A stretch of DNA of 55,765 nucleotides, taken from a virus. The first letter of the stretch is position 1. The number at the start of each line of letters is the position of its first letter. Position numbers and translations under genes: made by a program. This document shows positions 8,635-51,366 of this stretch, one piece after another. Location of the stretch: positions 1-55,765 of IMG/VR virus record IMGVR_UViG_3300008110_005672. The stretch is one strand, 5' to 3'. The notes beneath the pieces were generated by a model that was given only the letters and a program-made list of their open reading frames with translations, had not been told where the DNA came from and did not search any database.

Positions 8635-9486
8635 TTATACTTCCAATACAATATTAGGATTCCACCCGGTATCCTCAGTATAGCCATCGCTTTCATAACC
8701 TCTAGGATTACAAACTACACGAGTGCTACCTAACACATAATCAAAAGGATGATGAGTGTGACCGTGAGTCCACAGTTTGATCTGTGGATGATCAAGAATA
8801 AACTCACTTAGGTCACTGTGATAACCACCGTTCATGATATAGTCATGTGCATACTGAGGATGACAGCTCAAGTGACTGGGAGTGTGATGTCCCACTACCA
8901 CGAACTTCTGCTCCTGAGGATAACCATCCATCACAGTTTTAAAATATTGTAGAGTCTTGCGATGACGGTCTGCAATGTCAGCAGGCTTAAGAGTTCTATA
9001 ACCTGCATCATCATTGCGAATAATTCTAAAATCATTCATCATGTCCGCAAGCGCATGAAGCGTGAACGGGTCATGCTTGTTGCAGTCGGTCCAAAGTGTT
9101 GCACCCATGAACACGATATCGTTGATCACTTTGACATCATTTTCTAAAAAATAAACGTTAGGATACTTGGCACACTCTTCACGAAGGTGATCAATGCTGG
9201 CAAAAAATTTGCCATGGTAAAATTCGTGGTTGCCTGCAACATATATCACATGAGGAAATTGAAAACTGCAACGCTTTAAGAAATCACGGAATCTCTGTGA
9301 CTTGAGTTGTCTACTGCCTAACATCTCTAGCATGGCCGCAGTTCTAACATTTTCGTCCTGATGGTCGTGCAGGTCTTGAGCAACCATGATGTCGCCCGAG
9401 AGAATCAGTAGGTCATAGTCAGCATCGTTGGGGATCATTATGTCCGAGAACTCTAAATGCAGATCTGAAACCAATTTAATTTTCAT
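8635..9486 (-). CDS. calcineurin-like metallophosphoesterase
   Basis: 283 residues with the full set of metal-binding motifs: DLH (SDLHLE, near residue 8), GDI (SGDIM), GNHE (AGNHEFYHG), GHH (VVGHHTP) and GHTH (THGHTHHPF). Cytoplasmic. Substrate cannot be deduced; phage relatives include nucleotide phosphatases and phosphodiesterases. Monocistronic start from the perfect promoter at 9512-9540. Confidence 0.88.
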   Translation of the reverse strand: MKIKLVSDLHLEFSDIMIPNDADYDLLILSGDIMVAQDLHDHQDENVRTAAMLEMLGSRQLKSQRFRDFLKRCSFQFPHVIYVAGNHEFYHGKFFASIDHLREECAKYPNVYFLENDVKVINDIVFMGATLWTDCNKHDPFTLHALADMMNDFRIIRNDDAGYRTLKPADIADRHRKTLQYFKTVMDGYPQEQKFVVVGHHTPSHLSCHPQYAHDYIMNGGYHSDLSEFILDHPQIKLWTHGHTHHPFDYVLGSTRVVCNPRGYESDGYTEDTGWNPNIVLEV

Positions 9487-9511
9487 GATAATTTTCCGGT
9501 AATGTACATAT

Positions 9512-9540
9512 ATTATAGCACCAGTTTAAGAGTTTGTCAA
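9512..9540 (-). promoter_or_regulatory. sigma70-consensus promoter (TTGACA-N17-TATAAT)
   Basis: Both hexamers perfect, spacer 17 bases, minus strand; drives the metallophosphoesterase and probably the small-gene run behind it. It lies directly back-to-back with the plus-strand late promoter at 9544. Confidence 0.9.
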
Positions 9541-9543
9541 ACG

Positions 9544-9551
9544 GTTAAATA
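9544..9551 (+). promoter_or_regulatory. T4-type late promoter (GTTAAATA)
   Basis: T4-type late box followed by CTC about 30 bases upstream of the plus-strand membrane-protein island. The GGGAGCGA before the ATG at 9581 is its ribosome-binding site. Confidence 0.55.
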
Positions 9552-9580
9552 CTCATATTAACTAACCCGGGAGCGAAACG

Positions 9581-9862
9581 ATGGGCGACATATTCAAAAT
9601 CATAGGTGATCTGGGCATGCCAGTTGCCGCGGCATTGGCGGGCGGCTACTTTGTCTACCTGACTATCAAGCTGTTGCTACAGGGTGTTTTGGGCAGCATC
9701 AACGGCATGAAGGGCATTATTATTGCTCTAGACAATCGTGTTAAAACCATGAACCACGACGTTATTCGCATTGATACCATTGTGTCAAACGCATTGGGTC
9801 TACGTCCAGATGCAGATCGTATAGCTCGTGCAGACGGCAAGAACGATGCAAGGAGAGACTGA
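9581..9862 (+). CDS. holin-like small membrane protein A
   Basis: 93 residues: one N-terminal transmembrane segment (MPVAAALAGGYFVYLTIKLLL) followed by an amphipathic helix NRVKTMNHDVIRIDTIVSNALGL and a charged tail. This layout (one TM, coiled helix) is that of BhlA/UviB-type holin-like proteins. It is paralogous to the protein at 10351-10662. The lysis role is inference. Confidence 0.6.
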   Translation: MGDIFKIIGDLGMPVAAALAGGYFVYLTIKLLLQGVLGSINGMKGIIIALDNRVKTMNHDVIRIDTIVSNALGLRPDADRIARADGKNDARRD

Positions 9863-10068
9863 TGTTGTACTTTGACTATTCTTGGGACTGTAGTCCTAGC
9901 GGTATTATATTAGATCAAGAATTCAATGTGGATAAACTAGGATGGCAAGGCGGTGACTACTTTCAACTGGTTAACATTAACGGTAGGTGCTATCTCAAAA
10001 AAGTAGATCCTTTAGTAAAATTTATCAAAGACGGAGAGCGAAATGGACAAATGGATCAAATGGTATGA
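9862..10068 (+). CDS. 68-residue protein of unknown function
   Basis: Begins MLYFDYSWDCSPSGIILDQEF, beta-rich, soluble. Start overlaps the previous stop (TGATG). Homologs with W-D-x-S-P-x-G are known to me as small hypothetical proteins of T4-like phages. Function unknown. Confidence 0.6.
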   Translation: MLYFDYSWDCSPSGIILDQEFNVDKLGWQGGDYFQLVNINGRCYLKKVDPLVKFIKDGERNGQMDQMV

Positions 10069-10189
10069 CAGTTTGCCAGAACATACTAGAGAATATCTAA
10101 AACATCAACCGTTGTGGCATGACAGCGATCTTGCCAAGGCGGGACTGGTAGGATTTGTAATAGGATTGATATTGGGATTAACAGTGTAA
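10043..10189 (+). CDS. 48-residue membrane protein
   Basis: MDKWIKWYDSLPEHTREYL... with a C-terminal transmembrane helix LVGFVIGLILGLTV. Overlaps the previous gene by 26 bases. GGAGAGCGA precedes the ATG. Function unknown; belongs to the membrane-protein island. Confidence 0.65.
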   Translation: MDKWIKWYDSLPEHTREYLKHQPLWHDSDLAKAGLVGFVIGLILGLTV

Positions 10190-10209
10190 TCAACAAATAG
10201 GAGCGAACT

Positions 10210-10350
10210 ATGTTGTTTGAAGCATTTCTAGTGTTTTGGATGCTAGAAGTTTTAGTTCTAGCATCAGTGGCAGTATGGTATTATTATGAACCCATAGAAA
10301 AAGAAAAGAAAATCTGGGATCCTTGGGGAATCTGGAAGGAGGTAAAATAA
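10210..10350 (+). CDS. 46-residue membrane protein
   Basis: N-terminal transmembrane helix (AFLVFWMLEVLVLASVAVWY) and a short charged tail ending IWDPWGIWKEVK. AGGAGCGA four bases before the ATG. Ends exactly where the next gene begins. Function unknown. Confidence 0.65.
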   Translation: MLFEAFLVFWMLEVLVLASVAVWYYYEPIEKEKKIWDPWGIWKEVK

Positions 10351-10662
10351 ATGGATGTCGTAGAACTTATAAACAAATATGGATTCCCAATTGTTATGGC
10401 AGTTGGAATGGGCTTCATTATCAAGTATGTTTGGGAATGGGCCACCAAAGAAGTCAAGCCTGTTATCTCAGAAGCCAACACTGTGCTTATCGCTCTCATT
10501 GATCGTATCCGAATGTTAGACAACGATTTGATTCGACTTAACCAAAAGGTTAATACTGTATTACACCTGCGTGGTAAAACGATCGAATATGAACGTGTTG
10601 AAGCTGAAAAGAAAATCAACGAACATGCAGACGACAAAGAAGCAAAGGGCGGTAGTTCTTAA
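10351..10662 (+). CDS. holin-like small membrane protein B
   Basis: 103 residues: TM helix (FPIVMAVGMGFIIKYVWEW), then DRIRMLDNDLIRLNQKVNTVL, aligned by eye with the same region of the 9581-9862 protein (R-x4-D-x-IR-x4-V-x3-L), and a long charged tail. GGAGG precedes the start. Probably an old duplication of protein A. Convergent with the cyclase gene. Confidence 0.62.
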   Translation: MDVVELINKYGFPIVMAVGMGFIIKYVWEWATKEVKPVISEANTVLIALIDRIRMLDNDLIRLNQKVNTVLHLRGKTIEYERVEAEKKINEHADDKEAKGGSS

Positions 10663-12438
10663 TCACTTGCTTGTTGCTATAAAGATGCCATCCCAATCAG
10701 CAGGTAAGTCTTGAGTTAGTTGGAATTCGCAACGTTCAATCCACATGTCGTAGTACTTGTCCATTTTACCATCAAACTCGCCTTTTAAAGAATTACATAG
10801 TTCAATAGCACCTTTAAAATCTTGAGCACGATATAAACTGTGCATCCTGTCATGTTCAGGTTGTGTTTGCAAATATTCAGACATAGCACCTACATCTGTG
10901 TCTAGTACTGTATAGATAGCGATACCCACACTCTTGCCTTTAACTGCTAGATCATCAATCTTTAAAAAGAAAAAGTCATCTTTACAGCGTTCAACAGTTG
11001 CTCCGCCTACCAGTAATACACATCCGTATTCTTTACACTTGCTTTCGATACGTGCGGCTGTTGAAACAGCATCTCCTAAAATATCGTAGCTGTGCCTTGC
11101 ACTAGAACCCATCTCTCCAATGTAGCCTAGGCCCGTGTTGATACCTGCACCCATGGCAATAGCAGGACGACCTTCTGCTACAATTTTATCGTTAAATTTC
11201 TCTACTGCTTTCAACATGTTAAGACCTGTACGCACTGCTGTTTTTGGATGATCAGCATCGTCGATAGGAGCATTGTGTATGTGCATACTTGCATCACCAA
11301 TGTACTTGATTACCATTCCGTTTGCATCTAGAATAGGCTGTGTAATAGCATCCATGTATCCGTTCATGATACGTGTAAGTCCTTTAACGTCATCACCAAA
11401 ACTTTCACCTAATGGTGTAAAGCCTCGTAGATCACTAAAACAAATTGACACTTCACGCTTCATACCATCTTTGATGAGTGCAGGATTTTCTGCTAGCATA
11501 CGAACTACAGTGGGACTGGCATAGCCAGCAAACTGTTTCTTTATGGCCTGCTTCTGCAGGAACTCACTTACAAACTTGACACCATAAGTATGAAGAGCAA
11601 CGATAATAAGCCCAAACGCGATTGCAGTCGCATCTGATAGGATGAGCCAATTATTGAAAGCGTAGATAGTACCAGGAACGACGGCACCAACAATAACCAC
11701 AGCAGCACAAATTCCAACATAAGTCCACCTCGATAAGAAAATTAACAATATGCCGAATGCTAGTAATGCTAGGATTTCAACGCCGTCGGCATAATCGGGA
11801 CGTTGAATTACCACTCCATTAATCATAGTACCTATTGCTGCCGCTTGTACATCCTGCGGCCATACTGCACCTTTACTTGTAGGCAAAGGATTAGCAATGC
11901 CTGCGGCTGTCGGACCTACTATAACTATAGCACCATTAAAGTTTTTGGGCAAGTCCAAAAGGCTTGCCTGTTGGTTCTCTTGACTCCAATCGATCCATAC
12001 ACGACCTAGGTTATCTGTAGTAATAGGACCAAACTTAGGTATGCGCATTTTCTCAACACCGTTCTCGTTGAGCTTTACTTGGAATGTGGAGTCGCCGGCA
12101 GCAGCACGAAGTGTTTCCATAGACATACTAGGATACAATTTACCGTCAACAGATACAATCAACGGTAGTCTACGATTAACACCGTCTACTTCTGGTAGTG
12201 TGCTAACTATCCCAATGCCTGCCGCTGCATTTTCTAATTGTGGTACGTTGGCAATAAGTCCGGGATATTGTACGATTTGGTCCTGCCACTCTGGTCCTAG
12301 TACTGCTGATCCTGGATTACGTGGTGTATTTTTAGTTTTTTGTGCCGGCACGCTGCCTAGTACAACTGGATATTGTTTTAGAGCCGTTGCGAGAATACCA
12401 TCACCACCAGTGCGGTCAGGCTCATGGCCACTGGCCAT
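10663..12438 (-). CDS. CHASE2-type class III nucleotidyl cyclase, main part (frame broken)
   Basis: Makes a cyclic nucleotide (cAMP or cGMP) at the membrane in response to an extracellular signal sensed by CHASE2. This frame holds the rest of CHASE2 (EPDRTGGDGILATAL onward), three or so transmembrane helices (about residues 215-290) and a cyclase domain: first metal Asp in CFSDLRGF, second in KYIGDA, and GDAVSTAAR in place of the usual GDxVNxAAR, so the conserved Asn is Ser. The N-terminal part is in another frame at 12422-12631; about 30 residues between YGQWP and EPDR are missing. Activity therefore doubtful as sequenced. Confidence 0.8.
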   Translation of the reverse strand: MASGHEPDRTGGDGILATALKQYPVVLGSVPAQKTKNTPRNPGSAVLGPEWQDQIVQYPGLIANVPQLENAAAGIGIVSTLPEVDGVNRRLPLIVSVDGKLYPSMSMETLRAAAGDSTFQVKLNENGVEKMRIPKFGPITTDNLGRVWIDWSQENQQASLLDLPKNFNGAIVIVGPTAAGIANPLPTSKGAVWPQDVQAAAIGTMINGVVIQRPDYADGVEILALLAFGILLIFLSRWTYVGICAAVVIVGAVVPGTIYAFNNWLILSDATAIAFGLIIVALHTYGVKFVSEFLQKQAIKKQFAGYASPTVVRMLAENPALIKDGMKREVSICFSDLRGFTPLGESFGDDVKGLTRIMNGYMDAITQPILDANGMVIKYIGDASMHIHNAPIDDADHPKTAVRTGLNMLKAVEKFNDKIVAEGRPAIAMGAGINTGLGYIGEMGSSARHSYDILGDAVSTAARIESKCKEYGCVLLVGGATVERCKDDFFFLKIDDLAVKGKSVGIAIYTVLDTDVGAMSEYLQTQPEHDRMHSLYRAQDFKGAIELCNSLKGEFDGKMDKYYDMWIERCEFQLTQDLPADWDGIFIATSK

Positions 12439-12631
12439 ATTTGTCTAAGGCTGCTTCATCTATGTTGACCGTATAGATGTTATTGGCAGTTGGAGTTTTT
12501 TGTGTAATCAGTGTGTCAAAGTATCGTAGTCTTACACTTTCTACAAAGCTAGGATCGGCAATTCTTATACTTAATATAAGTGCCAATGTCAGTAGAGCGG
12601 TCCACGGACTAGTTAGTATTTTTTTCATCAT
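12422..12631 (-). pseudogene. N-terminal fragment of the CHASE2 cyclase
   Basis: Starts MMKKILTSPWTALLTLA, with a transmembrane helix, then RYFDTLI and YTVNIDEAALDKYGQWP, the typical opening of CHASE2, before stopping. Overlaps the main frame by 17 bases. In intact CHASE2 proteins YGxWPWxR is followed by about 25-30 residues before the ExDRxGGD segment, so DNA is missing at the junction. Start overlaps the upstream stop (ATGA). Confidence 0.7.
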
Positions 12632-12921
12632 ATAGGCGTGCCAAAAGTTGAAACGGAGTCGGAGCCTGTGCCCAATATGCACGTAGTGGTTGGAGTCATT
12701 TTAAGCAATGTCCAGTTTTGAGTTTTTTCATTGATCCAAAGAGAATATACAGATTTATCGTTGACGTGTAAACCTTTCCAGGATAATTTTTCTTCAAATT
12801 CTTTCTCCAGCACTGAGATAACTTTTTGAGTATCGTCACAGACGATAGGATAGTCATATCTAAATTGGGCGTTGACTAGGCTGGGTGAGCAGACGAGGAA
12901 CGCCAGTAGCAGTGAACGCAT
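12628..12921 (-). CDS. secreted protein of unknown function
   Basis: 97 residues with a clear signal peptide (MRSLLLAFLVCSPSLVNA|Q). Mature part about 79 residues with two Cys (VCDD and TTCI), which could form a disulfide in the periplasm. Coupled to the cyclase N-terminus by ATGA. A late-type box GGTAAATA (12941-12948) and AAGGAG precede it. Function unknown; it may modulate the sensor. Confidence 0.7.
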   Translation of the reverse strand: MRSLLLAFLVCSPSLVNAQFRYDYPIVCDDTQKVISVLEKEFEEKLSWKGLHVNDKSVYSLWINEKTQNWTLLKMTPTTTCILGTGSDSVSTFGTPI

Positions 12922-12950
12922 TACCGGCTCCTTAAAATAATATTTACCAG

Positions 12951-13433
12951 TTATCTCACCAACATGGCAAAGCTAAACATCACTGTAGGCACAGCTATGG
13001 CCATGAAACTTATACCTATCAACACTCTATCTATCATATCAGAATGTGCCTGTATCCTGGCATTTTTTATGTCTGCTTCTAGTTTAGCACGTTCTTTATA
13101 CATACGCACTCGTTCAGCCATCATTTGTTCCCAGACATCACCATTACCACTGTATATCAACAGTTCTTTGAGTTGTTTTTCTGCATCCCTAAGTGCCTTA
13201 CTCTGCATGGCAATTTCTATTGACATGGCCCTAATCTGTCCGTCAGTAAGAATTTTTTTGCTTGTTTGTACCGCTACGTTAGCACCGTGAATCTTGTCGC
13301 TGTTTTCAAAGAATTTGGCAAACTGTCCGTAGAGGCTATTGACATCTTTGCCTAGAGCAATGGCTTTTTTGATATAGCTCACTGACTGCTGTGCGGCGGT
13401 GAAGGCAAGACCAATTGTGATAGGATCGATCAT
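12951..13433 (-). CDS. coiled-coil protein with C-terminal membrane anchor
   Basis: 160 residues. The central region (about 70-130) is charged helix with many Glu, Lys, Arg and Ala; a hydrophobic segment GISFMAIAVPTVMFSFAML lies near the end. Tail-anchored topology. Similar proteins occur in large marine phages without known function. Coupled to the upstream 51-residue gene. Confidence 0.7.
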   Translation of the reverse strand: MIDPITIGLAFTAAQQSVSYIKKAIALGKDVNSLYGQFAKFFENSDKIHGANVAVQTSKKILTDGQIRAMSIEIAMQSKALRDAEKQLKELLIYSGNGDVWEQMMAERVRMYKERAKLEADIKNARIQAHSDMIDRVLIGISFMAIAVPTVMFSFAMLVR

Positions 13434-13585
13434 GTTTTCTTAGGATCCTTGGGTTTTGGGGGAGGTTTAGACCACTCTACACATACGACCTTGCGATTGT
13501 AGACATCACCAGTCCAAGTCCATTTTACACACCGAGGCTCATCGGGGTTGAATCCAGCCAGAAATATGCTTAGAATTAGGTCCAT
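13430..13585 (-). CDS. 51-residue protein of unknown function
   Basis: MDLILSIFLAGFNPDEPRCV... with a short hydrophobic start, two Cys (CVKW and VVCVEW) and a Pro/Lys tail PPPKPKDPKK. Stop overlaps the next start. GGAGCGAC before the ATG and a late-type box GCTAAATA at 13607-13614. Function unknown. Confidence 0.65.
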   Translation of the reverse strand: MDLILSIFLAGFNPDEPRCVKWTWTGDVYNRKVVCVEWSKPPPKPKDPKKT

Positions 13586-13618
13586 TGTCGCTCCGTACCT
13601 GTATGGTATTTAGCGGTA

Positions 13619-15268
13619 TTATTGGCCCTGCGTCACTGTGATTTTGGCACATCCGCCTGCTGTGGTGCAGTTATGTGTAATTGAGTAGTAGTTCTGTGTG
13701 CTGCCGCTTTGTGTTAGGCTTAGATCAGTGGGTGTGCCGCTGAGATTGACTTTGGCCATATGACTGGCTGAACCTTGCTGTGTAATATCAACGTTTTTGT
13801 TTCCACCACTTAGGGTAACTTCTGCATAATGACTTCCACTGTCTTTTTGTTGTACGATTAGACTGTTGTTGTTTCCGCTGACATCAGCAAATATTCCTTT
13901 AGAACCACCTGTGCTGGTCTGTTGAAGATCTACTGTATTGAAATTGCCCACTACTCTAAGATCCGTATAATTGACCTGCGTTGAGGCATTGCCCTGTTGC
14001 ACAATGTCGATGTCGTTGCTTAGGCCATTGCCGTAGTAATTAACATAGTTGTTTTGTGTGCCGGACTGTGTAACGGTAATAGTGTTTTGTGTTCCGATCT
14101 GTTCTATATGTACTTGACTGTCTGCTGTGGTTCTGTTAGTGAATGTCATAACTTTGGCTGTGTTTGCTGAGTTGGCATTAAATGCGGCAGCACTCCCGCC
14201 ACAGCACAAAGGAGGAGGAGTATATATCCCGCCACCTGCTAATGTTCCTTGTGGATCATCTACATCGTAAAGCAATCTAATCTCAGCCACTTGGAACGCA
14301 TCGCCGCCGTCTCTGGATCCGGTGAATTCTATTTTGTAATAACTGTAAGCAGTGACATTGCTTAAACTATAAACAGTACTGGCTGTAAGCCTGCCAGTAG
14401 GCAATGATATTGCTTGATGTGACACCAGCACCCAGTCAGTGCCATTAATGCTGCCCCATACTCTAAATCCTGTTGGGTCACGGTTAGATGCGTCATTGGC
14501 TGTGACAAACTGAATTTTTTGTACGGCTCTAGTTGGAGAATATGTGCCATCTGTGACAAATTGCACCACAGCCCAAGCACCTTGACTTCTAAGTCCAAAC
14601 CATTTACTGCCGTTGTTGTTGTCAAATGCTTCGTGTGCTTGTTCACTGCCAATAGGTTGACTGCCTGCTGTATATGTTTTCCATTCATAACTAGTGACTC
14701 GTGTAAAGTTCGTACCGTAAGTGGGAGGCGGAGGTGCCGCATTACTAGGAGTAGATGTGGCAGTCTGCCCTGAACTTAACGGGACTGTGGAATAAGATGC
14801 ATTAGCATAAGTGTCGGCCTGTTGTATAGTTGGATTAAGTGTACCAGTCCACGATACTCCGCTGGTATTTGACATACCCGAGCTGCCACTGAATAGCTGT
14901 CCTGTATTGTTGTCATTGCCTACAAAGAAGAAATAATCCGGACCCATGTTGACAATTTTACCTGTGCCTATGGTTCCTGCTAGTGTGCCGTTGCTGTTGT
15001 AAACTTTGCCTTCGTAGGGAAAGCTAGCATTGCCAGTTAAAGTAAACTGGACATACTGTCCAGTTTGCCACGACCATTGTCCAGCGGTCCAGGGTATTTT
15101 ATACATAATGCCTGGATTCTTACTGTAGATTTGGCAGGTTGTTGTGTTCAAACAGGCATTGACATTCCATTGGCTGTCTGCAATTTGGTATTGCCCAAAC
15201 TTTATATCGGTTAAGGCACCAAAGGCATTAGAGCAGAACAATAACATCAAAAAAATTATTCGTTTCAT
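13619..15268 (-). CDS. secreted discoidin-like and curlin-repeat fusion protein
   Basis: 549 residues. Signal peptide (MKRIIFLMLLFCSNAFG|A), an N-terminal beta region, a Pro linker, an F5/8 type C (discoidin)-like domain at about 190-335 (EAFDNNNGSKWF, VQKIQFVTAND, GFRVWGSINGTDW, YYKIEFTGSRDGGDAFQVAEIRLL), then about 170 residues of curlin-type repeats (VHIEQIGTQNTITVTQSGTQ and similar Q-x-G-x2-N units). Such a protein could be a ligand-binding cap of a curli fibre exported through the CsgG pore encoded nearby. Overlaps the FecR gene by 4 bases. Confidence 0.82.
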   Translation of the reverse strand: MKRIIFLMLLFCSNAFGALTDIKFGQYQIADSQWNVNACLNTTTCQIYSKNPGIMYKIPWTAGQWSWQTGQYVQFTLTGNASFPYEGKVYNSNGTLAGTIGTGKIVNMGPDYFFFVGNDNNTGQLFSGSSGMSNTSGVSWTGTLNPTIQQADTYANASYSTVPLSSGQTATSTPSNAAPPPPTYGTNFTRVTSYEWKTYTAGSQPIGSEQAHEAFDNNNGSKWFGLRSQGAWAVVQFVTDGTYSPTRAVQKIQFVTANDASNRDPTGFRVWGSINGTDWVLVSHQAISLPTGRLTASTVYSLSNVTAYSYYKIEFTGSRDGGDAFQVAEIRLLYDVDDPQGTLAGGGIYTPPPLCCGGSAAAFNANSANTAKVMTFTNRTTADSQVHIEQIGTQNTITVTQSGTQNNYVNYYGNGLSNDIDIVQQGNASTQVNYTDLRVVGNFNTVDLQQTSTGGSKGIFADVSGNNNSLIVQQKDSGSHYAEVTLSGGNKNVDITQQGSASHMAKVNLSGTPTDLSLTQSGSTQNYYSITHNCTTAGGCAKITVTQGQ

Positions 15269-16362
15269 GGACGTCTCAACACCCCAGTCTTCTGTACAAT
15301 GTTTACAACGTTGCCTCCCGGGTCTCCGCTGCCAATAACTGTATATGCATACTGATCATCATGACTGATGGAAACAAATGTGTTGGAATTGTAGCCCGAT
15401 GTTTTCACTTCAGCATAGTGATCAATGTTGGTACGATAAGCTATACCGCGTCCTCGACTTTCGATGTCCGGCGAATCTGACTTTTCCCAGGCCACACACA
15501 CTGCTGTGCTGGCATTACAACCTGCTCGACCTAGGGATTCTTCCAATATTAATAGTCTAGCACGTTCGATAGATTCGTCAGCTTCACGTGCTCGCTGTGC
15601 AATTTGTCGCTGTGCTTCAGCTTCAGCTTCATCGGCTTCTTGATCTCGTTTGCTGCGTGCCTGTTCTCGGATGGCCTGTGTGATTTCAGGTGGTGCCAGC
15701 AAGATCATGTTGTTGCTGATTTTGCTCTCTACAGTGTTGATCACTGTGGGTGCAGTGGGCATGTTGTTGGCACTGCCCACAAATGTAGCTTCAAATGCCT
15801 TATCTAATGTGACTGTACCTGCGTCCGTGGTGACCAAAATACTGCCCACTTTGCAACGGTTTTCCTCCAGCTCATAGGTCTTGATGTCGCGATCATCCTT
15901 GCAACTAGGCACCAACACAATTAGACTCTGGCCAGTTTCGTCCACAGTCATGGTAAAGTCAGTGCCTCGTACCGCCACTGTGGCTGTAGGAGTTTTGATG
16001 TTGACCTGTTGTGGATTGTTTTTGGCTATCTGACCTGACGCATAACGCACAGTGCCCATCCCCACCTTCATGGCCAGTTTGCCTGCGTCTGAGTTTTTTG
16101 GATCGTATACAAAATCGTCAATCACCAGTCTAGAATTTTCAGTTACCTTAACTTTGGTTTCATCACGAAATGTAATGCTGCTGGCACATGCACCAGTGGT
16201 ATAGGTGTCCATGCTTTCAATAGCTGCACCTTTGATACCAGACAATTTTTTCTTGTTACGTTCAACTTCGCAGGCAGTGCCCTTGTTTTCGCTAACCGTG
16301 CCAATGGCAGCCCATGCAGGACTCACTGCGGACAACAACAGTGCCAGCATCAGCCACCGCAC
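15265..16362 (-). CDS. FecR-domain periplasmic protein
   Basis: 365 residues. Signal peptide (MRWLMLALLLSAVSPAWA|A), a FecR domain at about 20-150 with the signature KTPTATVAVRGTDFTM, then a charged coiled-coil (AREADESIERARLL) and a short C-terminal part with repeats that end VVNIVQKTG, curlin-like. FecR domains in such architectures are periplasmic sensors or scaffolds; proteins like this often sit next to CHASE2 cyclases in proteobacteria (recalled, not checked). Position between the two curlin genes suggests joint function. Confidence 0.82.
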   Translation of the reverse strand: MRWLMLALLLSAVSPAWAAIGTVSENKGTACEVERNKKKLSGIKGAAIESMDTYTTGACASSITFRDETKVKVTENSRLVIDDFVYDPKNSDAGKLAMKVGMGTVRYASGQIAKNNPQQVNIKTPTATVAVRGTDFTMTVDETGQSLIVLVPSCKDDRDIKTYELEENRCKVGSILVTTDAGTVTLDKAFEATFVGSANNMPTAPTVINTVESKISNNMILLAPPEITQAIREQARSKRDQEADEAEAEAQRQIAQRAREADESIERARLLILEESLGRAGCNASTAVCVAWEKSDSPDIESRGRGIAYRTNIDHYAEVKTSGYNSNTFVSISHDDQYAYTVIGSGDPGGNVVNIVQKTGVLRRP

Positions 16363-16364
16363 AG

Positions 16365-17180
16365 TTATCTCGCTATGGCTGACACAGGTGCCACAATAGC
16401 TGAACTGCTGGTTCTCACAGTGACAGTGTTGTTGCTGCCTTGTGTTTGGATATTCACTGTGGTGTCATTGGTACCTTGTTGCTGAGTGGTAATGCTGTTG
16501 AAATCGCCCACTGTGGCCATGGCCAACACATGCCCATTAGCTCCGGCAGCATCAATTTGCTGTATGTTGAACACATTGCTGTCGCCTGTGATAGCGTTGG
16601 TCACTGTGCCACGGCTGCTGAGCAGGTCACTGGTGATTTGATTGCTGTTGCCAGTGATTGTGGTAGTAGTAACAATTTCGTTGCCCACTAGATTCTGTAT
16701 GATCATGTTGCTGTTACCAGTGATAGTTTCTGTGATCACATTGTCCTGGTTGGCAGCCGCATTGGCATTGCCCACGGTTAATCTAGTTTGATTGCTGTTG
16801 CCTGTCACAGTGCTGTTGTAGGTGTTGAGGTTGCCCATGATGTTGTACTGCGCGGAGTTGGCATTGCCAGTCTGCGTGATGCCTACAATGTTGTTGCTGC
16901 CTGTAATAGTGCCATAGTTGCTGGCGCTAGGTGCGTCTGGAGTCAGTGTAGTGATACCTGTGCCAGCCACTACTGTGGCAGTGGTCGTGGTCACTCCACC
17001 AACATTGTTGGTACCACCAACTTGTTCAATGGTGATAACGTTGCTGCTACCAACCTGTTCAATATAGACCTTATTGGGTCCTGTGGCAGACTGCGCCCAG
17101 ACTGTGCTGGCGCCCATGAGCATTGCCACTGCAAGTAATTTTCTCGACAACTCGCCACTGCCTGTCATTCTTTTTTTCAT
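16365..17180 (-). CDS. curlin-repeat protein (CsgA/CsgB-like)
   Basis: 271 residues. Signal sequence ending WAQS, then repeats such as VYIEQVGSSNVITIEQVGGTNN, ITGSNNIVGITQTGNANS and VTGNSNQTRLTVGNAN, with Gln and Asn at curlin spacing (S-x5-Q-x-G-x2-N-x-A-like). Longer and more Thr-rich than E. coli CsgA (151 residues). Predicted to form amyloid on the cell surface after export by CsgG. The first and fifth codons are both Met; ribosome-binding site not obvious. Leader contains two palindromes. Confidence 0.82.
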   Translation of the reverse strand: MKKRMTGSGELSRKLLAVAMLMGASTVWAQSATGPNKVYIEQVGSSNVITIEQVGGTNNVGGVTTTTATVVAGTGITTLTPDAPSASNYGTITGSNNIVGITQTGNANSAQYNIMGNLNTYNSTVTGNSNQTRLTVGNANAAANQDNVITETITGNSNMIIQNLVGNEIVTTTTITGNSNQITSDLLSSRGTVTNAITGDSNVFNIQQIDAAGANGHVLAMATVGDFNSITTQQQGTNDTTVNIQTQGSNNTVTVRTSSSAIVAPVSAIAR

Positions 17181-17221
17181 CTTGTGTCTAATGTTGGTTT
17201 ATTGTTTGCCAACAAGTCCTT

Positions 17222-17233
17222 GGTCTTAAGACC
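17222..17233. promoter_or_regulatory. palindrome GGTCTTAAGACC in the curlin leader
   Basis: Perfect 12-bp palindrome 42 bases upstream of the curlin-repeat gene. May be an operator or an mRNA hairpin. Confidence 0.35.
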
Positions 17234-17252
17234 GTTAATGTTCCTTATAATT

Positions 17253-17260
17253 TATTTAAG
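17253..17260 (-). promoter_or_regulatory. T4-type late promoter-like box (CTTAAATA)
   Basis: Lies 73 bases upstream of the curlin-repeat start, with TATAAT at about 17277-17282 as an alternative sigma70 -10 box further upstream. Confidence 0.4.
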
Positions 17261-17297
17261 TCACTGCATACAGAAATTATATACCGCTGTTAAATTG

Positions 17298-17327
17298 TTA
17301 ACATGTTAAAATTTTTACATGTTTAAA
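17298..17327. promoter_or_regulatory. two ACATGT-centred near-palindromes between csgG and the curlin gene
   Basis: TTAACATGTTAA (17298-17309) is a perfect 12-bp palindrome, and a second ACATGT-containing site follows at 17316-17327. Spacing about one and a half to two helical turns fits a regulator binding site. Regulator unknown. Confidence 0.4.
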
Positions 17328-17358
17328 TTACAACACCTTTTTGAACTGACAATTCTTC

Positions 17359-18384
17359 TTACCAACTAGGTTCAACATCATTTTTAGGTGCCTGTTTCTT
17401 TACTTCTTGCTTGATTTCTTGCTTGATTTCTGATTCGGGCTCGATAGCTTTGCCTGTTCCATTGCCTTGTCCGCCATTGGGCTGCTGTGGTGCGGGGTTA
17501 GGTGCACTTTTGGCAGGGGCGGATTCTTTGGGGGTTTGTGTTTGAACCAACTCATTCTTTTCCTCCTTGAAACTCCAATGTCCTTTACGGGCGCCTTCAT
17601 TAATAGTCTGGACCACTGCGGCCTGCACAGCCACGTCCACTGCTCTGTTGATACTTTCGTTAATGCTGCCGCCAATCTCACCTTCCACGGCATTGGCATT
17701 GGCTCCCAGGGTGGTGCCATCGCCTATGAAACGTAGCAGGGTCAATTTGTCCATGTAACTCAACACAGTTTTAGTCACGGTAACAGTTGTGAGTATTTCA
17801 CCAGTGGCCACACTGACTGCTCTTAGAGTCACTGTTACAGTGTCACTTTGATATTGTGTTGATGCACCGATACCAAAAATTCTCACTCCCGACCCGCCTG
17901 TGAGTGTATTTGAATCGTAGCCAACAATACCACCTTCCATTATGATACCAGCAAACAACATTGGCGGTAGAGGTTTGGCATCCTTGCCTTGATACTGTTC
18001 ACGCATCTGACGTATCATCTGTCGTTCTTTGATCAGATTGTCCAGGCCCCCACGTTCCAGCACAGTGAACCAACGTTGATCACCTACATCTTGTAGAGCT
18101 TTGATTAGATAGTTGTCAGCACCCTGTGTCACAGCTGAACTCAGCGATGCAATCAAGGGCTGGCTTTTACGTTGTCCTGTTAGATCACGGAATCCATAGA
18201 CAGCTACAGCCACTGGTCCGCCTTGTGGTGGGCGTAGTTTGTTTTGTTCTTGCTTTAGAAACTTGCTGGCTTCGACTCGAGGCGCATCAAATTGATTGCC
18301 GGTTATTTTTTCACGTAAGGCCGAGCTTGATGCGCAACCAGATAAGACTGCCACTACCGCTAGAGATAACAATGTGTGTTTCAT
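17359..18384 (-). CDS. csgG: CsgG-like curli secretion lipoprotein
   Basis: 341 residues. Lipobox LSGC at the end of a short signal peptide, then the CsgG body: PVAVAVYGFRDLTGQ, GDQRWFTVLERGGLDNLIKERQ, FAGIIMEGGIVGYDSN and VTVTLRAVSVATGEI, all typical of the nonameric outer-membrane pore that exports curlins. The C-terminal 80 residues are a Pro/Gln/Lys-rich tail not found in E. coli CsgG (277 residues). Four bases from csgF. No CsgE homologue is visible. Confidence 0.92.
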   Translation of the reverse strand: MKHTLLSLAVVAVLSGCASSSALREKITGNQFDAPRVEASKFLKQEQNKLRPPQGGPVAVAVYGFRDLTGQRKSQPLIASLSSAVTQGADNYLIKALQDVGDQRWFTVLERGGLDNLIKERQMIRQMREQYQGKDAKPLPPMLFAGIIMEGGIVGYDSNTLTGGSGVRIFGIGASTQYQSDTVTVTLRAVSVATGEILTTVTVTKTVLSYMDKLTLLRFIGDGTTLGANANAVEGEIGGSINESINRAVDVAVQAAVVQTINEGARKGHWSFKEEKNELVQTQTPKESAPAKSAPNPAPQQPNGGQGNGTGKAIEPESEIKQEIKQEVKKQAPKNDVEPSW

Positions 18385-18387
18385 TGC

Positions 18388-18870
18388 TTATCCCCCAAAT
18401 CCAAACGTACCACTTGGCACAGTTATTTCTGTATACTGTCTTGGATCCAAGACGTTTTCAATTCTAACAACAATATTAGTTCCCACTACTTTCCAAGTGA
18501 TGTTGTTGCCGGCTACTTCCATTTGACCGCAATTGCCTGCACTATTTGCTGAACACACCGGCACTCCGTTGACTCCAAACAGACTATCTGTGATCTGTTT
18601 TGCCAACTGTGAATAGATGCGGCTTTCCAAGTTGGCTTGAAACTTGGCTTGTGGTGTGTTTAATGCATCGCTTTCTGCTTTGGCTTTGAGTGCATCGGCA
18701 GCATTTTTGTTCTTGTCTCTGGCCTGAGTTTCTAGTTGGTGTATTGTGAGTACGTGTGAACTATAGCCAATGCCACTAAAGGATGGACTATTAAAACTGT
18801 GTTGTAATTCTGCTGCGCCGACCATTGATGCTGCAATAATCAACATGGCGGCGGCTATAGATTTAACCAT
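18388..18870 (-). CDS. csgF: CsgF-like curli assembly factor
   Basis: 160 residues. Signal peptide (...SMVGAAE), followed by the CsgF N-terminal peptide LQHSFNSPSFSGIG, which corresponds to the segment that inserts into the CsgG pore, and a C-terminal domain ending in TVPSGTFGFGG. CsgF anchors the nucleator to the pore. GGGAGCGA precedes the ATG and a late-type box (18898-18905) lies upstream, so csgF-csgG form an operon. Confidence 0.88.
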   Translation of the reverse strand: MVKSIAAAMLIIAASMVGAAELQHSFNSPSFSGIGYSSHVLTIHQLETQARDKNKNAADALKAKAESDALNTPQAKFQANLESRIYSQLAKQITDSLFGVNGVPVCSANSAGNCGQMEVAGNNITWKVVGTNIVVRIENVLDPRQYTEITVPSGTFGFGG

Positions 18871-20384: not shown

Positions 20385-20392
20385 TATTTAGC
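20385..20392 (-). promoter_or_regulatory. T4-type late promoter (GCTAAATA)
   Basis: Immediately upstream of the capsid-targeted protein gene and overlapping the stop codon of the bilin reductase gene. Confidence 0.5.
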
Positions 20393-21080
20393 TGATTTCT
20401 GGGAACAGGCATTCTTGAATAAACACCCTTACATCCTCTTCTGAAAGTCCTAAACTAACCATTACACGTGGTGTATGTGGGTTCTGTTTTTGATTTTCGC
20501 AGTAGAAATTCTGTGCAGATCTAGTGTCGTTTGCAGTATTGTTAGTTTCAGCTACTGTACCTAGATAATGATGTATGCCCGCTTTTGCCATGGCAATAAT
20601 CTGTGCTAATTCTTCATCATCACTAACGTTGCCTGCAGCCACCATACTTGGACTGAAAATACGTTCTGCCCAGTCGGGTAATTTGCGAGTCTTATTCCAT
20701 TCTAACTTTTGTGCTTCGTCTGCAAACCAATCCATCATGGCATGCTCTTTATCGCCTGCGGCTGAATAATCGTAGAAGCAGCCCGTAATCTTGTTCTTGC
20801 CAGCAATAACATCAAATCCAAAAATAGGAGCAGGATTATGTGTATGCGGAAAAATGCAACAGTGCATCATCCAAAGACCTTTGGTCTCACGGGCATCTAC
20901 TACGTCCACGTGAGCTCTACGATAACTGTCACTGGTCCAAACACGATTAACCCATCCGGGACTGTTAAAGCGATCCATTCCAGGTTCGAATACTTCTGTT
21001 CCTGTTTTAGTAAACTGATCTATGAATAGCGTTTGCACTTCGATCAGTGTGTCCCAAACTTTACTTGTTGATGTTTGCAA
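20388..21080 (-). CDS. pcyX: ferredoxin-dependent bilin reductase (PcyX/PcyA-like)
   Basis: 230 residues. Reduces biliverdin to a phycobilin using ferredoxin electrons. FDBR family signatures: SYRRAHVDVVDA, HCCIFPH (the active-site His of PcyA) and PIFGFDVIAGKNKITG (the catalytic Asp). Where PcyA has Glu76 this protein has Asp (AHVDV). PcyX, a PcyA-related phage enzyme that makes phycoerythrobilin, is the closest idea. Overlaps the heme oxygenase gene by 20 bases. A TTG start is used; a few residues either way are uncertain. Confidence 0.85.
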   Translation of the reverse strand: MQTSTSKVWDTLIEVQTLFIDQFTKTGTEVFEPGMDRFNSPGWVNRVWTSDSYRRAHVDVVDARETKGLWMMHCCIFPHTHNPAPIFGFDVIAGKNKITGCFYDYSAAGDKEHAMMDWFADEAQKLEWNKTRKLPDWAERIFSPSMVAAGNVSDDEELAQIIAMAKAGIHHYLGTVAETNNTANDTRSAQNFYCENQKQNPHTPRVMVSLGLSEEDVRVFIQECLFPEIS

Positions 21081-21612
21081 TTTCCATCATCTCTTTAAAA
21101 AATTGTGTAGCAAAATCAAAACAAACCTTGGCTTCGTCTGCCATACTGTCGTCGATTTTTAAACGGACTGCTGCTTTTAGGCTATCGGCATCTTCGAAAT
21201 GATAGTATTTGCCAGAACCTGGAACTTTCTTAGCAATCATCTGTCCGCCAGCAAGATCACCCATGTGTCGTACATAGATGTGTGCCATCAGCAGTTTAGG
21301 ATCATCTTTAATTTTCATGATGTGATCCATATACTGCTTTGTCACTGCACACATTTTGGGTCTATCTTCATCGTCTGATCCCCACAATTCTTCGAAGTCA
21401 GCTCTAATGGCCTTGGCCCGTAGGATTCCCGGCATGTCAGACAGTAGTCCGTGCGGCATGGCACACACTTCTAACAGCTCATACATGGGAAATTGATTGT
21501 AGAGATAGGTGGCATACAGTTTTGGATCTATAGTTCCTGAAAACAGGATTTTTACAAACTCCTGTCTTTCGGCATTGGTGTGATTGTCTTTGGTTAATTC
21601 TCGTAGGCTCAT
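21061..21612 (-). CDS. ho1: heme oxygenase
   Basis: 183 residues. Opens the heme ring to biliverdin IX-alpha, CO and iron. Proximal heme His in DNHTNAER near residue 11, and the distal-helix signature YVRHMGDLAGGQMI (family: YxRYLGDLSGGQ). Length is slightly short of cyanobacterial HO1. Directly feeds the bilin reductase encoded just downstream with overlapping frames. Heme oxygenase plus FDBR is a known phage-borne pair in cyanophages and some other marine phages. Confidence 0.93.
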   Translation of the reverse strand: MSLRELTKDNHTNAERQEFVKILFSGTIDPKLYATYLYNQFPMYELLEVCAMPHGLLSDMPGILRAKAIRADFEELWGSDDEDRPKMCAVTKQYMDHIMKIKDDPKLLMAHIYVRHMGDLAGGQMIAKKVPGSGKYYHFEDADSLKAAVRLKIDDSMADEAKVCFDFATQFFKEMMEIANINK

Positions 21613-31755: not shown

Positions 31756-32391
31756 TTAATATTTCCCTGATGCTAGAACGATTTGACAGATATGTTCTAA
31801 TCGTTCAATGTGTTCAAATGCTCGCCACGGGCTTGTGTCAATGGCCACAACACCATGACCCTTGATACCTACAATATCGTAGGCAATATTGCCTTCACTA
31901 TCTAATCGCAAGTTCTCATGACAACGATCGGCAAGTTCTTGACTGATAGGAGCCACATCACCCACGTTAGGTGCTACCTTGGTATAGCGATTAAGTTCCG
32001 GAAACTCCGCACTCACCGTACCCAAATCAATACCGGCATGCATGGCAGCGATACAATACGTGGGATGTAGATGAACCACTACCCTAACTTCATTGCGGTG
32101 CTTGCCCATAGCTCGTTGCAAGCCAAAGTGTAAGGGAATTTCTCCTGACGGTTTTAGATTAGCACTGATGTCAGTATATGACAATTCTTCCCACAAATAA
32201 CCTCTATTAGGTTCCCAAGATATTCCAATCTTCTTGAACTGGTCAGGTTGCATGGTCTGCTTACGGACGCCACTGGGTGTGATATAAAAGTGATCACGGT
32301 CGTGATGACGAATTGACACATTACCATCACGACTGGTAATCCAGTTACGTCTATATGCTTCAACGAGCGTGTCGCATATAGTTTCTAACAT
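31756..32391 (-). CDS. class II aldolase/adducin-family protein
   Basis: 211 residues. GNVSIR, PSG, KPSGEIPLH (catalytic Glu), HLHPTY (two zinc His) and KGHGVV (third zinc His) form the complete zinc site of fuculose/ribulose-phosphate aldolases and methylthioribulose dehydratases. Substrate not deducible; the location between AhpC and AhpD is unusual. Start overlaps the AhpC stop (TAATG). Confidence 0.88.
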   Translation of the reverse strand: MLETICDTLVEAYRRNWITSRDGNVSIRHHDRDHFYITPSGVRKQTMQPDQFKKIGISWEPNRGYLWEELSYTDISANLKPSGEIPLHFGLQRAMGKHRNEVRVVVHLHPTYCIAAMHAGIDLGTVSAEFPELNRYTKVAPNVGDVAPISQELADRCHENLRLDSEGNIAYDIVGIKGHGVVAIDTSPWRAFEHIERLEHICQIVLASGKY

Positions 32392-33014: not shown

Positions 33015-33074
33015 GTGATTTTAATAGATTTTTCAACAATTTTTTTAATGATACATATAGAAATTTTTAATAAT

Positions 33075-33099
33075 GAAAAGAAACCCGCCGAAGCGGGTT
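33075..33099 (-). terminator. rho-independent terminator behind the tmRNA
   Basis: AACCCGC-UUCG-GCGGGUU followed by TCTTTTC on the minus strand. Ends the csp-tmRNA transcript. Confidence 0.88.
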
Positions 33100-33104
33100 C
33101 TGCT

Positions 33105-33317
33105 ATTTTGGATGACAAGGTATAACTACCTCGGACCGCTGTTTTTTAGGCAGCTAGGGCAACTTTGCTTTTGCCGGAAACAGTGTTTCCAGTGAAGCTC
33201 ATTGCGCTGAAGTCAAATGTATCTGCGTTTGCATTTACGATTTTTGCTTGATTTACGGTCATCGCCTACCGTGTTGCCGTCTCTATTATCTCACCCTGTC
33301 GAAACCATGGCAGGCCC
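33105..33317 (-). ncRNA. ssrA: permuted tmRNA, coding piece
   Basis: 5' end GGGCCUG pairs with the 3' acceptor CAGGUCC of the other piece. It is followed by the diagnostic GGUUUCGACAGG and a pseudoknot-like CGGUAGGC...GACCGU. The tag reading frame resumes at a GCA (33230-33232) and runs 28 codons to the TAA at 33146-33148, ending KVALAA, the usual ClpXP-degradation end. The 28-residue tag is much longer than the ~10 residues of most bacteria. The 3' limit of this piece is approximate. Confidence 0.88.
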
Positions 33318-33378
33318 ATTATGAAGTATACTCAGCTTTCGCTTTGCTTCCAGAATACTCGGATCGGAGTATACTTTA
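33318..33378 (-). other. tmRNA intervening sequence with kink-turn-like hairpin
   Basis: 61 bases between the CCA of the acceptor piece and the 5' end of the coding piece, removed in mature two-piece tmRNA. AAAGUAUACUCCGA pairs with AGCUGAGUAUACUU, leaving a UCC-GA/CUGA internal loop that resembles a kink-turn. The same conserved flanks occur at 756-823. Confidence 0.7.
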
Positions 33379-33440
33379 TGGTGGACCTGGCGGGAGTCGA
33401 ACCCGCGTCCAGAATGCCTTCACTTTGAAGGGATTACAAC
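33379..33440 (-). ncRNA. ssrA: permuted tmRNA, acceptor piece
   Basis: Encoded upstream of the coding piece. Contains hairpin CCUUC/GAAGG, GGACGCGGGUUCGACUCCCGCC (T-arm) and the acceptor CAGGUCC with A-CCA end. Begins directly after the cold-shock gene, so it must be cut out of a csp-tmRNA transcript. The 5' limit is approximate. Confidence 0.88.
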
Positions 33441-33447
33441 AATTCTT

Positions 33448-33651
33448 TTAGGCAGCTTGGATATTGCTAGCCTGCTCGCCTTTTTGACCCTGAGTCACTT
33501 CAAACCTTACACTTTGTCCTTCTTGTAGGCTCTTGAAGCCACTCGAATTAATCTGTGAAAAGTGAGCAAATAAGTCTGCGCCACCATCGTCCGGAGTAAT
33601 GAATCCAAAACCTTTGGCGTCGTTAAACCATTTTACTTTTCCTGTTACCAT
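33448..33651 (-). CDS. csp: cold-shock domain protein
   Basis: 67 residues from [21 protein letters not shown]1 KGFGFI and RNP2 DLFAHF are intact. Single-stranded nucleic-acid chaperone that loosens mRNA structure. Its stop codon lies a few bases before the tmRNA acceptor piece, with which it is co-transcribed. Confidence 0.94.
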
Positions 33652-33908: not shown

Positions 33909-34559
33909 TTACACTGTTAGGGTATTGATTACACCACCGGCTGTGCCTCGGGGGAATAGGTTAAAGGCCAAACTGTATCGTACCTTTGACGATTGATTTT
34001 CTTCAACTGAATGAGTCATCATTGAAGGGAACATGATTAAATCATTTTTGGCAGGAAATATGCCCCAAGCATCTGCATTGAAGAAATTTAATTTGGAATC
34101 ATCAGCATGGTCTTGATAATTGAAATCTACTCTCACAGTTTCAGTCCACAGATTGTAGTTGCCTTTGTCTTTATGGCAGACGAATGCCCCAGTGTCACCG
34201 TCGGTATCAATATAGTAAACACCGCTGATTAGGCTGTTACCGTGGTAATGTTGACCCGAGTAGTCTCCAGTATAGTGTCTATTGACCCAACTGTTTTCCA
34301 TTTGAAAATCCATGTTGCTCTTTACATCTAGCACTGTATAGATAAAATTATCTGCGGCTTTCATGATCTTGGTTCTTAATGGCGCTAGCTCTGGAGTATT
34401 CAAAATGTATTTGTTTACAGAATAATCGCCGTTGTCAGCAGGCATGCGTTCATATTCTTGACTTTCAATGAAGTCACGCATGCCTTTATCTAATGACCCA
34501 ATGTTGGTCTGATACAAAGGCACGCCGAACAACGGAGTGACTTTATAGGTAGGTGTCAT
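33909..34559 (-). CDS. 2OG-Fe(II) oxygenase family protein (phage type)
   Basis: 216 residues. HYHGNSLISGVYYIDTD holds the metal His and conserved SGVYY; FPSMMTHSVEENQSSKVRYSLAFNLF holds the distal His and the Arg. This is the pattern of the phage oxygenase family often annotated TIGR02466/PF13759. Substrate unknown. Coupled to the DUF454 fragment downstream by ATGA. Confidence 0.82.
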   Translation of the reverse strand: MTPTYKVTPLFGVPLYQTNIGSLDKGMRDFIESQEYERMPADNGDYSVNKYILNTPELAPLRTKIMKAADNFIYTVLDVKSNMDFQMENSWVNRHYTGDYSGQHYHGNSLISGVYYIDTDGDTGAFVCHKDKGNYNLWTETVRVDFNYQDHADDSKLNFFNADAWGIFPAKNDLIMFPSMMTHSVEENQSSKVRYSLAFNLFPRGTAGGVINTLTV

Positions 34560-50658: not shown

Positions 50659-51366
50659 TTATGCGTTTCTAAGTTTTGCTAGACCTATATAGTTAAACAA
50701 TTTAAACCACATCCAACCCAAATCAAATTCAAACCAACGACGACTTAATCGAGGATTAGCAGGATCTAGGTGATGGTTGTTGTGTAGCTCTTCACCGCCA
50801 ATTAATATACCCCAAGGTACTATATTACGACTATGGTCCTTGGTTTCACCATTGCGATATCCCCACCAATGGCCTACACCGTTGATAAAACCAGCGGCCC
50901 AGAACGGTATCCATATCATTTGTACACCCCACACTAGAAATCCCCAGGACCCAAATAATACAAGATCTATGATCAACATTAAGAGAATGCCCAGGCGGCT
51001 ATGGGGTGTATAAAGTTTACGTTCAATCCAGTCTTTAGGAGTACCCATTCCATATTTCATAATCATGTCAGCATCTTTGCCGGCACGGTTATAAAACTTG
51101 ACTCCACCAAATACCAATGGCCAAATACCAAATACGTGGGGACTGTGTGGATCGCCTTCGACATCTGTGTTCTGATGATGCTTGCGATGGATGGCCACCC
51201 ACTGCTTGGTGGTCATTCCAGTTGTGAGCCATAACCAAAAACGCATAAAATGGCTTAAGATTGGGTGAAATTCAATACCTCTATGTGCTTGGCTTCTGTG
51301 TAGGTATAAGGTTACACAGACTATTGTAATGTGCGTCATTACCAACGTTGCGATTATCATATTCAT
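50659..51366 (-). CDS. membrane fatty-acid desaturase (acyl delta-9 type)
   Basis: 235 residues. The three His boxes of membrane desaturases: HRSQAHR, HRKHH and HNNHH, spaced normally, plus hydrophobic helices between them. Introduces a double bond into acyl chains in the inner membrane. Known from cyanophages. Divergent from the HAD gene. Confidence 0.93.
   Translation of the reverse strand: MNMIIATLVMTHITIVCVTLYLHRSQAHRGIEFHPILSHFMRFWLWLTTGMTTKQWVAIHRKHHQNTDVEGDPHSPHVFGIWPLVFGGVKFYNRAGKDADMIMKYGMGTPKDWIERKLYTPHSRLGILLMLIIDLVLFGSWGFLVWGVQMIWIPFWAAGFINGVGHWWGYRNGETKDHSRNIVPWGILIGGEELHNNHHLDPANPRLSRRWFEFDLGWMWFKLFNYIGLAKLRNA

Follow-up and report, generated by a model that had tools for sequence, protein, structure and literature searches.

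Why phages should carry genes for curli has been an open question since 2020, with hypotheses based on the pore and on the fibre standing side by side. It is raised again by the virus record IMGVR_UViG_3300008110_005672, whose full 55,765 bases are the window analysed here, and in which an initial annotation had noticed curli export, curlin, FecR and CHASE2 cyclase genes in a single block. Our answer, to which we give slightly better than even chances, is that this block is a late phage operon that would make the infected cell secrete adhesive curli with a lectin-like head. The interpretation has largely been anticipated in print: CsgF and CsgG were reported in pelagimyophages in 2020 (PMC7029224) and in the phage Melnitz in 2022 (PMC9004378), and PMC9599517, also from 2022, gives the series CsgF-CsgG-CsgA/B-FecR-CsgA/B-cyclase for SAR11 phages. 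The annotation had warned that phage curli clusters might already be described, and they were, FecR and cyclase included. The interpretation is partly supported, and this work adds to it a modular head, a late unit, a pair of small membrane proteins, the jumbo-phage setting and a bacterial counter-example.

The curli operon

The genes of the operon all lie on the minus strand, and their coordinates in the initial annotation were borne out by Pfam and PHROG profiles (E-values in brackets):

18388..18870 (-), csgF, first gene of the operon, secreted CsgG partner (PF10614, 1e-8; phrog_35372, 1.5e-31)
17359..18384 (-), csgG, outer-membrane lipoprotein pore (PF03783, 9.4e-47)
16365..17180 (-), curlin 1, CsgA/B-like, 271 amino acids, Sec signal and strand-turn-strand repeats
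15265..16362 (-), FecR-domain protein (PF04773, 2.2e-10; phrog_37870, 3.4e-71), overlapping curlin 2 by 4 nucleotides
13619..15268 (-), curlin 2, 549 amino acids: N module 20-195, F5/8C discoidin head about 196-345, curlin domain 372-549
12422..12682 (-), N-terminal fragment of the CHASE2 cyclase, with the first transmembrane segment and the start of CHASE2 (CHASE2 positions 3-51, 6e-4; phrog_35576 positions 1-70)
10663..12438 (-), remainder of the CHASE2 cyclase (CHASE2 PF05226, 1.9e-19; Guanylate_cyc PF00211, 2.9e-15)

The homologies proposed for CsgG, CsgF and FecR were thus recovered by their Pfam families, and so were both domains of the cyclase, although the latter gene is split into two open reading frames in this record. 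The gene order is that of the type VIII secretion system (T8SS) cluster of SAR11 phages, CsgF-CsgG-CsgA/B-FecR-CsgA/B-AC (AC, the cyclase), and csgF, csgG, curlin 1 and FecR are each present in 38/38 relatives with full flanks, curlin 2 in 37/38 and the cyclase in 36/38. Three components of type VIII secretion were found: a CsgG lipoprotein, its CsgF partner and curlin-repeat substrates. The CsgG family profile finds the structures of E. coli CsgG in the PDB (E 5.5e-67) and the alignment of relatives has invariant columns, among them the lipobox Cys17, with a lipobox in 60/61 relatives. An N-terminal PxFSG-type motif is found in CsgF of 57/62 relatives, and the single CsgF sequence gave no match against the PDB. 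Regarding the substrates, the solved curli subunit 8c50 is hit by the family profile of curlin 1 at E 4.7e-9 and by that of curlin 2 at E 2.5e-21; an invariant N/Q/G/N ladder runs across the curlin 1 alignment, and the predicted model of this protein consists of beta-strand repeats (predicted local distance difference test, pLDDT, 75).

Head modules of the second curlin

The C-terminal curlin domain of curlin 2 is nearly always complete across 46 members, and in most of those from viral contigs this tail is 53-90% identical to that of the window, the value being lower in a few short forms. The N-terminal part, in contrast, ranges from almost nothing (proteins of 140-207 amino acids) up to about 590 amino acids. 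By Pfam, F5/8C is hit in the heads of 17 of the 46 proteins, F5/8C_2 in 16, PA14 in 5 and GLEYA in 2, and curlin repeats are called in 27/46. The head in the window is predicted to be a lectin-like discoidin fold of F5/8 type C (CBM32): this part of the predicted model resembles CBM32/F5-8C folds with E-values of about 1e-5 to 1e-4. Exchange of modules is visible when close relatives are compared. Between the window and locus L007, identity is 86% in the N module, 34% in the discoidin and 88% in the curlin domain, and DNA identity breaks abruptly, from 87 to 41% and from 56 to 79%, in successive steps of 90 nucleotides; the corresponding values are 36/88/82 for L030/L039 and 40/85/75 for L014/L031. 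Curlin 2 therefore appears to keep its C-terminal curlin domain while the N-terminal head is exchanged (discoidin, PA14, GLEYA) or missing altogether, an arrangement that appears to be new. The profiles of two head modules matched no open reading frame in 80 genome-derived CsgG loci, and a term search (discoidin, PA14, lectin) found no mention of a headed curlin in PMC7029224, PMC9004378 or PMC9599517.

Swapped heads of carbohydrate-binding type on a tail that is kept would point to a displayed adhesin, since a pore for lysis or uptake needs none, and the lectin-like head on curlin 2 strengthens the case for adhesion over a bare pore. A more far-reaching version, which we regard as possible but on balance doubtful, is an amyloid surface display whose exchangeable lectin-like head is swapped like the tip of a tail fibre and would choose the targets of the dying cell.

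Late-type promoter and selection

The late-type boxes that the initial annotation had seen upstream are real: TAAATA lies 8-60 nucleotides upstream of 14/99 called genes of the window, where 1.7 would be expected. Window csgF has this box 33 nucleotides upstream, and among relatives it occurs within 80 nucleotides upstream of csgF in 75/83 loci, of csgG in 0/83 and of FecR in 0/75, with about 0.04 expected per gene. Because TAAATA precedes csgF and not csgG or FecR, the cassette fits one late-type transcription unit starting at csgF. The canonical T4 box, TATAAATA, was discarded as the signal, there being just two in the window and none upstream of a called gene, while TAAATA is the enriched form. 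For pelagimyophages it was reported that late promoters could not be found (PMC7029224). The ratio of non-synonymous to synonymous substitution (dN/dS) against the closest relatives is 0.04-0.12 for csgF, csgG, curlin 1 and FecR, and this purifying selection implies that the parts of the cassette are used. Swappable heads, a late-type promoter and curlins kept by purifying selection speak for the display of a fibre.

According to the adhesive-curli reading, the late-transcribed operon would lead the infected cell to secrete curli, with the host Sec pathway carrying the curlins to the periplasm and the CsgG pore, together with CsgF, exporting both. Curlin 1 would build the fibre and curlin 2 would be a minor subunit, presenting a putative sugar-binding head on its curlin tail. 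The lectin-like adhesin thus displayed may fix the infected cell, shortly before it lyses, to its neighbours or to particles, where the progeny would meet hosts, to the benefit of the phage. The CHASE2 cyclase, with a predicted location in the inner membrane, a periplasmic sensor and a cytoplasmic class III adenylate cyclase domain, could report the state of the envelope or of assembly as cyclic adenosine monophosphate, the FecR protein may be a secreted accessory, and the small membrane pair described below would be further members of the cassette.

A secreted surface fibre with diversifying heads could also serve superinfection exclusion, by fibres or lectin heads masking receptors and head diversity tracking competitor phages. 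T4-like phages usually exclude early, and late expression would come late for this purpose, so that we consider exclusion unlikely, even if the idea is also raised in PMC9599517. Of the earlier proposal that the phage makes the infected cell build fibres, what stands is that the phage bears a late-type cassette for curli export and fibres, which could render the cell adhesive; aggregation and exclusion of other phages or grazers are indistinguishable from sequence.

The export pore, the cyclase and the case for lysis

Several observations weigh against the adhesive-curli reading. The Pfam curlin repeat scores just 0.027 in window curlin 1, under the cut-off, and the predicted model of this protein found no significant fold match in the PDB (Foldseek). 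The weak curlin-repeat call, and a similarly weak F5/8C call on curlin 2 (0.0028 in the window, also under the cut-off, and up to 8.8e-13 in relatives), are settled by the family profile matches to 8c50 and by the resemblance of the model to CBM32/F5-8C folds; the repeat protein and the discoidin-curlin fusion of the initial annotation are thus retained, on these grounds and not on Pfam scores in the window. The constriction residues of E. coli CsgG, Tyr-Asn-Phe, are not retained in phage CsgG, and the CsgE gate is missing as judged by profiles: CsgE (PF10627) and CsgC (PF10610), which the annotation had already listed as absent, gave no match in the window, four jumbo relatives, Melnitz or HTVC008M, with a positive E. 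coli control. Alphaproteobacterial systems are likewise described without CsgE and CsgC in PMC9599517. In addition, cultures of Melnitz did not clump visibly (PMC9004378).

The state of the cyclase is a further adverse point, as the gene is broken in the window record. In relatives it is a single open reading frame of about 680 amino acids, and it is two here because 82 nucleotides found in L002 and other relatives are missing (lesion near 12424-12426) and the reading frame is lost. L002 is 99.7% identical to the window over 15.6 kb, and the gap may be either a real minority deletion or an assembly error. The metal Asp, Lys, Asp and Arg sites of class III cyclases are kept in the window gene as well as in relatives, with Asp or Thr/Ser at the base site, but the transition-state Asn is replaced by Ser in 32/46 cyclases, which makes activity unsure. 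Two cyclase types, distinguished by their catalytic motifs, alternate among otherwise alike cassettes. On the side of L002, a 4-nucleotide indel at 14465 truncates curlin 2, so that each of these near-identical records breaks one gene that is intact in the other.

With CsgE absent and the constriction residues altered, the pore may leak, which counts in favour of an extension of the proposal made for Melnitz. In this version CsgG/CsgF would be a gated pore in the outer membrane and would time lysis by depolarising or permeabilising the cell at the end of infection, together with the small membrane proteins, the fibre genes being passengers. The late-type promoter would suit this role, as would the paralogous small transmembrane pair in the cassette, one of which has a weak 19-amino-acid match to a holin (phrog_4898, 0.0011, for the product of 10351-10662). 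However, purifying selection on the curlins is strong, they are kept in the full-flank relatives at the frequencies given above, and a lysis pore gives no reason for heads to be swapped. Melnitz has been stated to be without CsgA/B (PMC9004378), but its record holds two curlin-repeat genes, which contradicts that claim and weakens a pore-only reading. We therefore think that lysis timing is an improbable explanation.

The FecR protein and the case for uptake

A CsgG pore that is open without CsgE could alternatively take up nutrients or iron, with FecR and the cyclase as regulators, as proposed in PMC7029224 and PMC9599517. The FecR protein has an N-terminal signal peptide and no further transmembrane segment by hydropathy, and so looks exported, unlike the inner-membrane FecR regulator; the combination of features that marks a sigma regulator (cytoplasmic N-terminus, one transmembrane segment, periplasmic domain and a neighbouring fecI) was not found, fecI being absent from the neighbouring genes examined. 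Moreover, no FecI or FecA homologue was found among the window genes scanned, and uptake would leave the curlins and their heads unexplained, for which reasons we hold it very unlikely. A candidate curlin half-repeat at the FecR C-terminus was rejected: the pattern occurs in 56/56 relatives, yet its scores against curlin profiles do not exceed those of shuffled sequences.

Small membrane proteins

The secreted and anchored small proteins that the initial annotation included in the block need to be reconsidered, as the small genes within it are not constant and the pair that belongs with it lies just outside, at 9581-10662 on the plus strand:

12628-12921, 12951-13433 and 13430-13585, three small phage genes between curlin 2 and the cyclase
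10351..10662 (+), small membrane protein, 103 amino acids (phrog_18771, E 1.8e-29), paralogue of the 9581..9862 product
9581..9862 (+), small protein with a single transmembrane segment, 93 amino acids (phrog_18771, E 1.4e-30)

The paralogous pair is present in 30/38 full-flank curli loci. A scan started from one small membrane protein returned at least 583 viral stretches and 42 loci with full flanks, in 41 of which a cyclase lies no more than 10 kb away, while L208, the exception, has curli genes; in INPHARED the pair occurs in HTVC008M and Melnitz only, both of them curli phages. The cassette thus looks widespread, and it reaches jumbo phages. One or two 'histidine kinases' are listed in the small-gene position before csgF in PMC9599517, and from this position we infer that they correspond to the pair. 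Pfam HisKA and HATPase profiles gave no match at E 10 in the HTVC008M and Melnitz genes at the kinase position or in their window homologues. That the pair travels with the cassette and would lack a kinase domain appears to be new.

As for the genes at 12628-12921, 12951-13433 and 13430-13585, they were rejected as cassette parts, being found in 10-13/83 loci and in varying places. Two of them form a small gene pair at 12951-13585 (-), of 51 and 160 amino acids, the second with a C-terminal transmembrane segment, and in relatives this pair moves between sites around the block.

Phage setting and related cassettes

Of the window's bases, 79% align collinearly to a 353 kb record and 53% to a 280 kb record, in both cases through the block, and a T4-type gp23 capsid gene is present in the 353 kb, 280 kb, 285 kb and 372 kb relatives. 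On this evidence the block is assigned to phage DNA, from a jumbo T4-like phage. Host DNA joined by mis-assembly, named at the outset as what would overturn the proposal, could be suspected as CsgG and the cyclase are bacterial families; it has a negligible probability, given the collinearity with a gp23-bearing record and given that 80 viral contigs and the cultured phages HTVC008M and Melnitz carry this cassette in this setting too. A literature search found no mention of jumbo phages with curli, and the occurrence of the cassette in jumbo T4-like phages appears to be new.

The orthologous cassettes are gp011-gp019 in HTVC008M and gp97-gp104 in Melnitz, in genomes of 147 and 141 kb, with a CsgG 47% identical to that of the window; the curlin 2 head of HTVC008M is PA14, whereas that of the window is a discoidin. 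In the CsgG tree, the window falls with 59 viral-contig sequences in a separate group with full support that excludes these two phages. Compared with the T8SS of SAR11 podo- and myophages (PMC9599517), the gene order, the small genes before csgF and the absence of CsgE, CsgC and, going by the initial annotation, CsgD are shared, while the jumbo T4-like background, the separate CsgG clade, the swappable heads and the small genes without kinase domain are different. Homology to E. coli curli extends to CsgG, CsgF and the curlins; CsgE and CsgC are missing and the constriction is altered, and FecR, the cyclase, the headed curlin and the small membrane pair are added.

A permuted two-piece transfer-messenger RNA (tmRNA) lies at 33055-33471 (-) and fits best the betaproteobacterial Rfam model, while that of Melnitz fits the alphaproteobacterial model and adjoins a glutamine riboswitch. 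The difference hints that the window lineage may infect other hosts than Melnitz.

Bacterial counterparts

Among the matches listed, the closest bacterial CsgG proteins are almost all alphaproteobacterial and 40-51% identical. FecR and a CHASE2 cyclase stand beside csgFG in 1/75 bacterial loci, on a contig of Hyphomonas sp. TMED17 (L096) of 705 kb, where csgF, csgG, a 504-amino-acid curlin, FecR and the CHASE2 cyclase form one run at 9477-15500 and metabolic genes flank the cassette. PMC9599517 states that FecR and cyclase are not inside bacterial T8SS operons, to which this contig is therefore a counter-example, though a rare one: the window-type cyclase was found in 1/105 family genomes searched, and the window-type FecR is best by far in the Hyphomonas genome among 385 class genomes. 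This marine csg-fecR-cyclase grouping appears to be new. In comparison with the window, the Hyphomonas operon has a single long curlin and lacks both the second, headed one and the small membrane pair. Its CsgG groups with the phages in the tree on a very long branch (2.95), which leaves the direction of transfer, and with it a role of the operon as donor, undecided.

Phage-type cassettes or parts of them were also seen in short contigs within metagenome-assembled genomes of Rhodobacteraceae, Flavobacteriaceae, Pirellulales and Pelagibacter (L090, L091, L093, L116 and L145), which are probably phage contigs in bacterial bins.

Other genes of the window

Just upstream of the curli operon, at 20388-21612 (-), two overlapping genes encode a heme oxygenase and a bilin reductase that depends on ferredoxin (phrog_7278), and both are present in 23/38 full-flank relatives. 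Likely further auxiliary genes on the same strand encode a class II aldolase (31756-32391), a 2-oxoglutarate-Fe(II) oxygenase (33909-34559) and a fatty acid desaturase (50659-51366).

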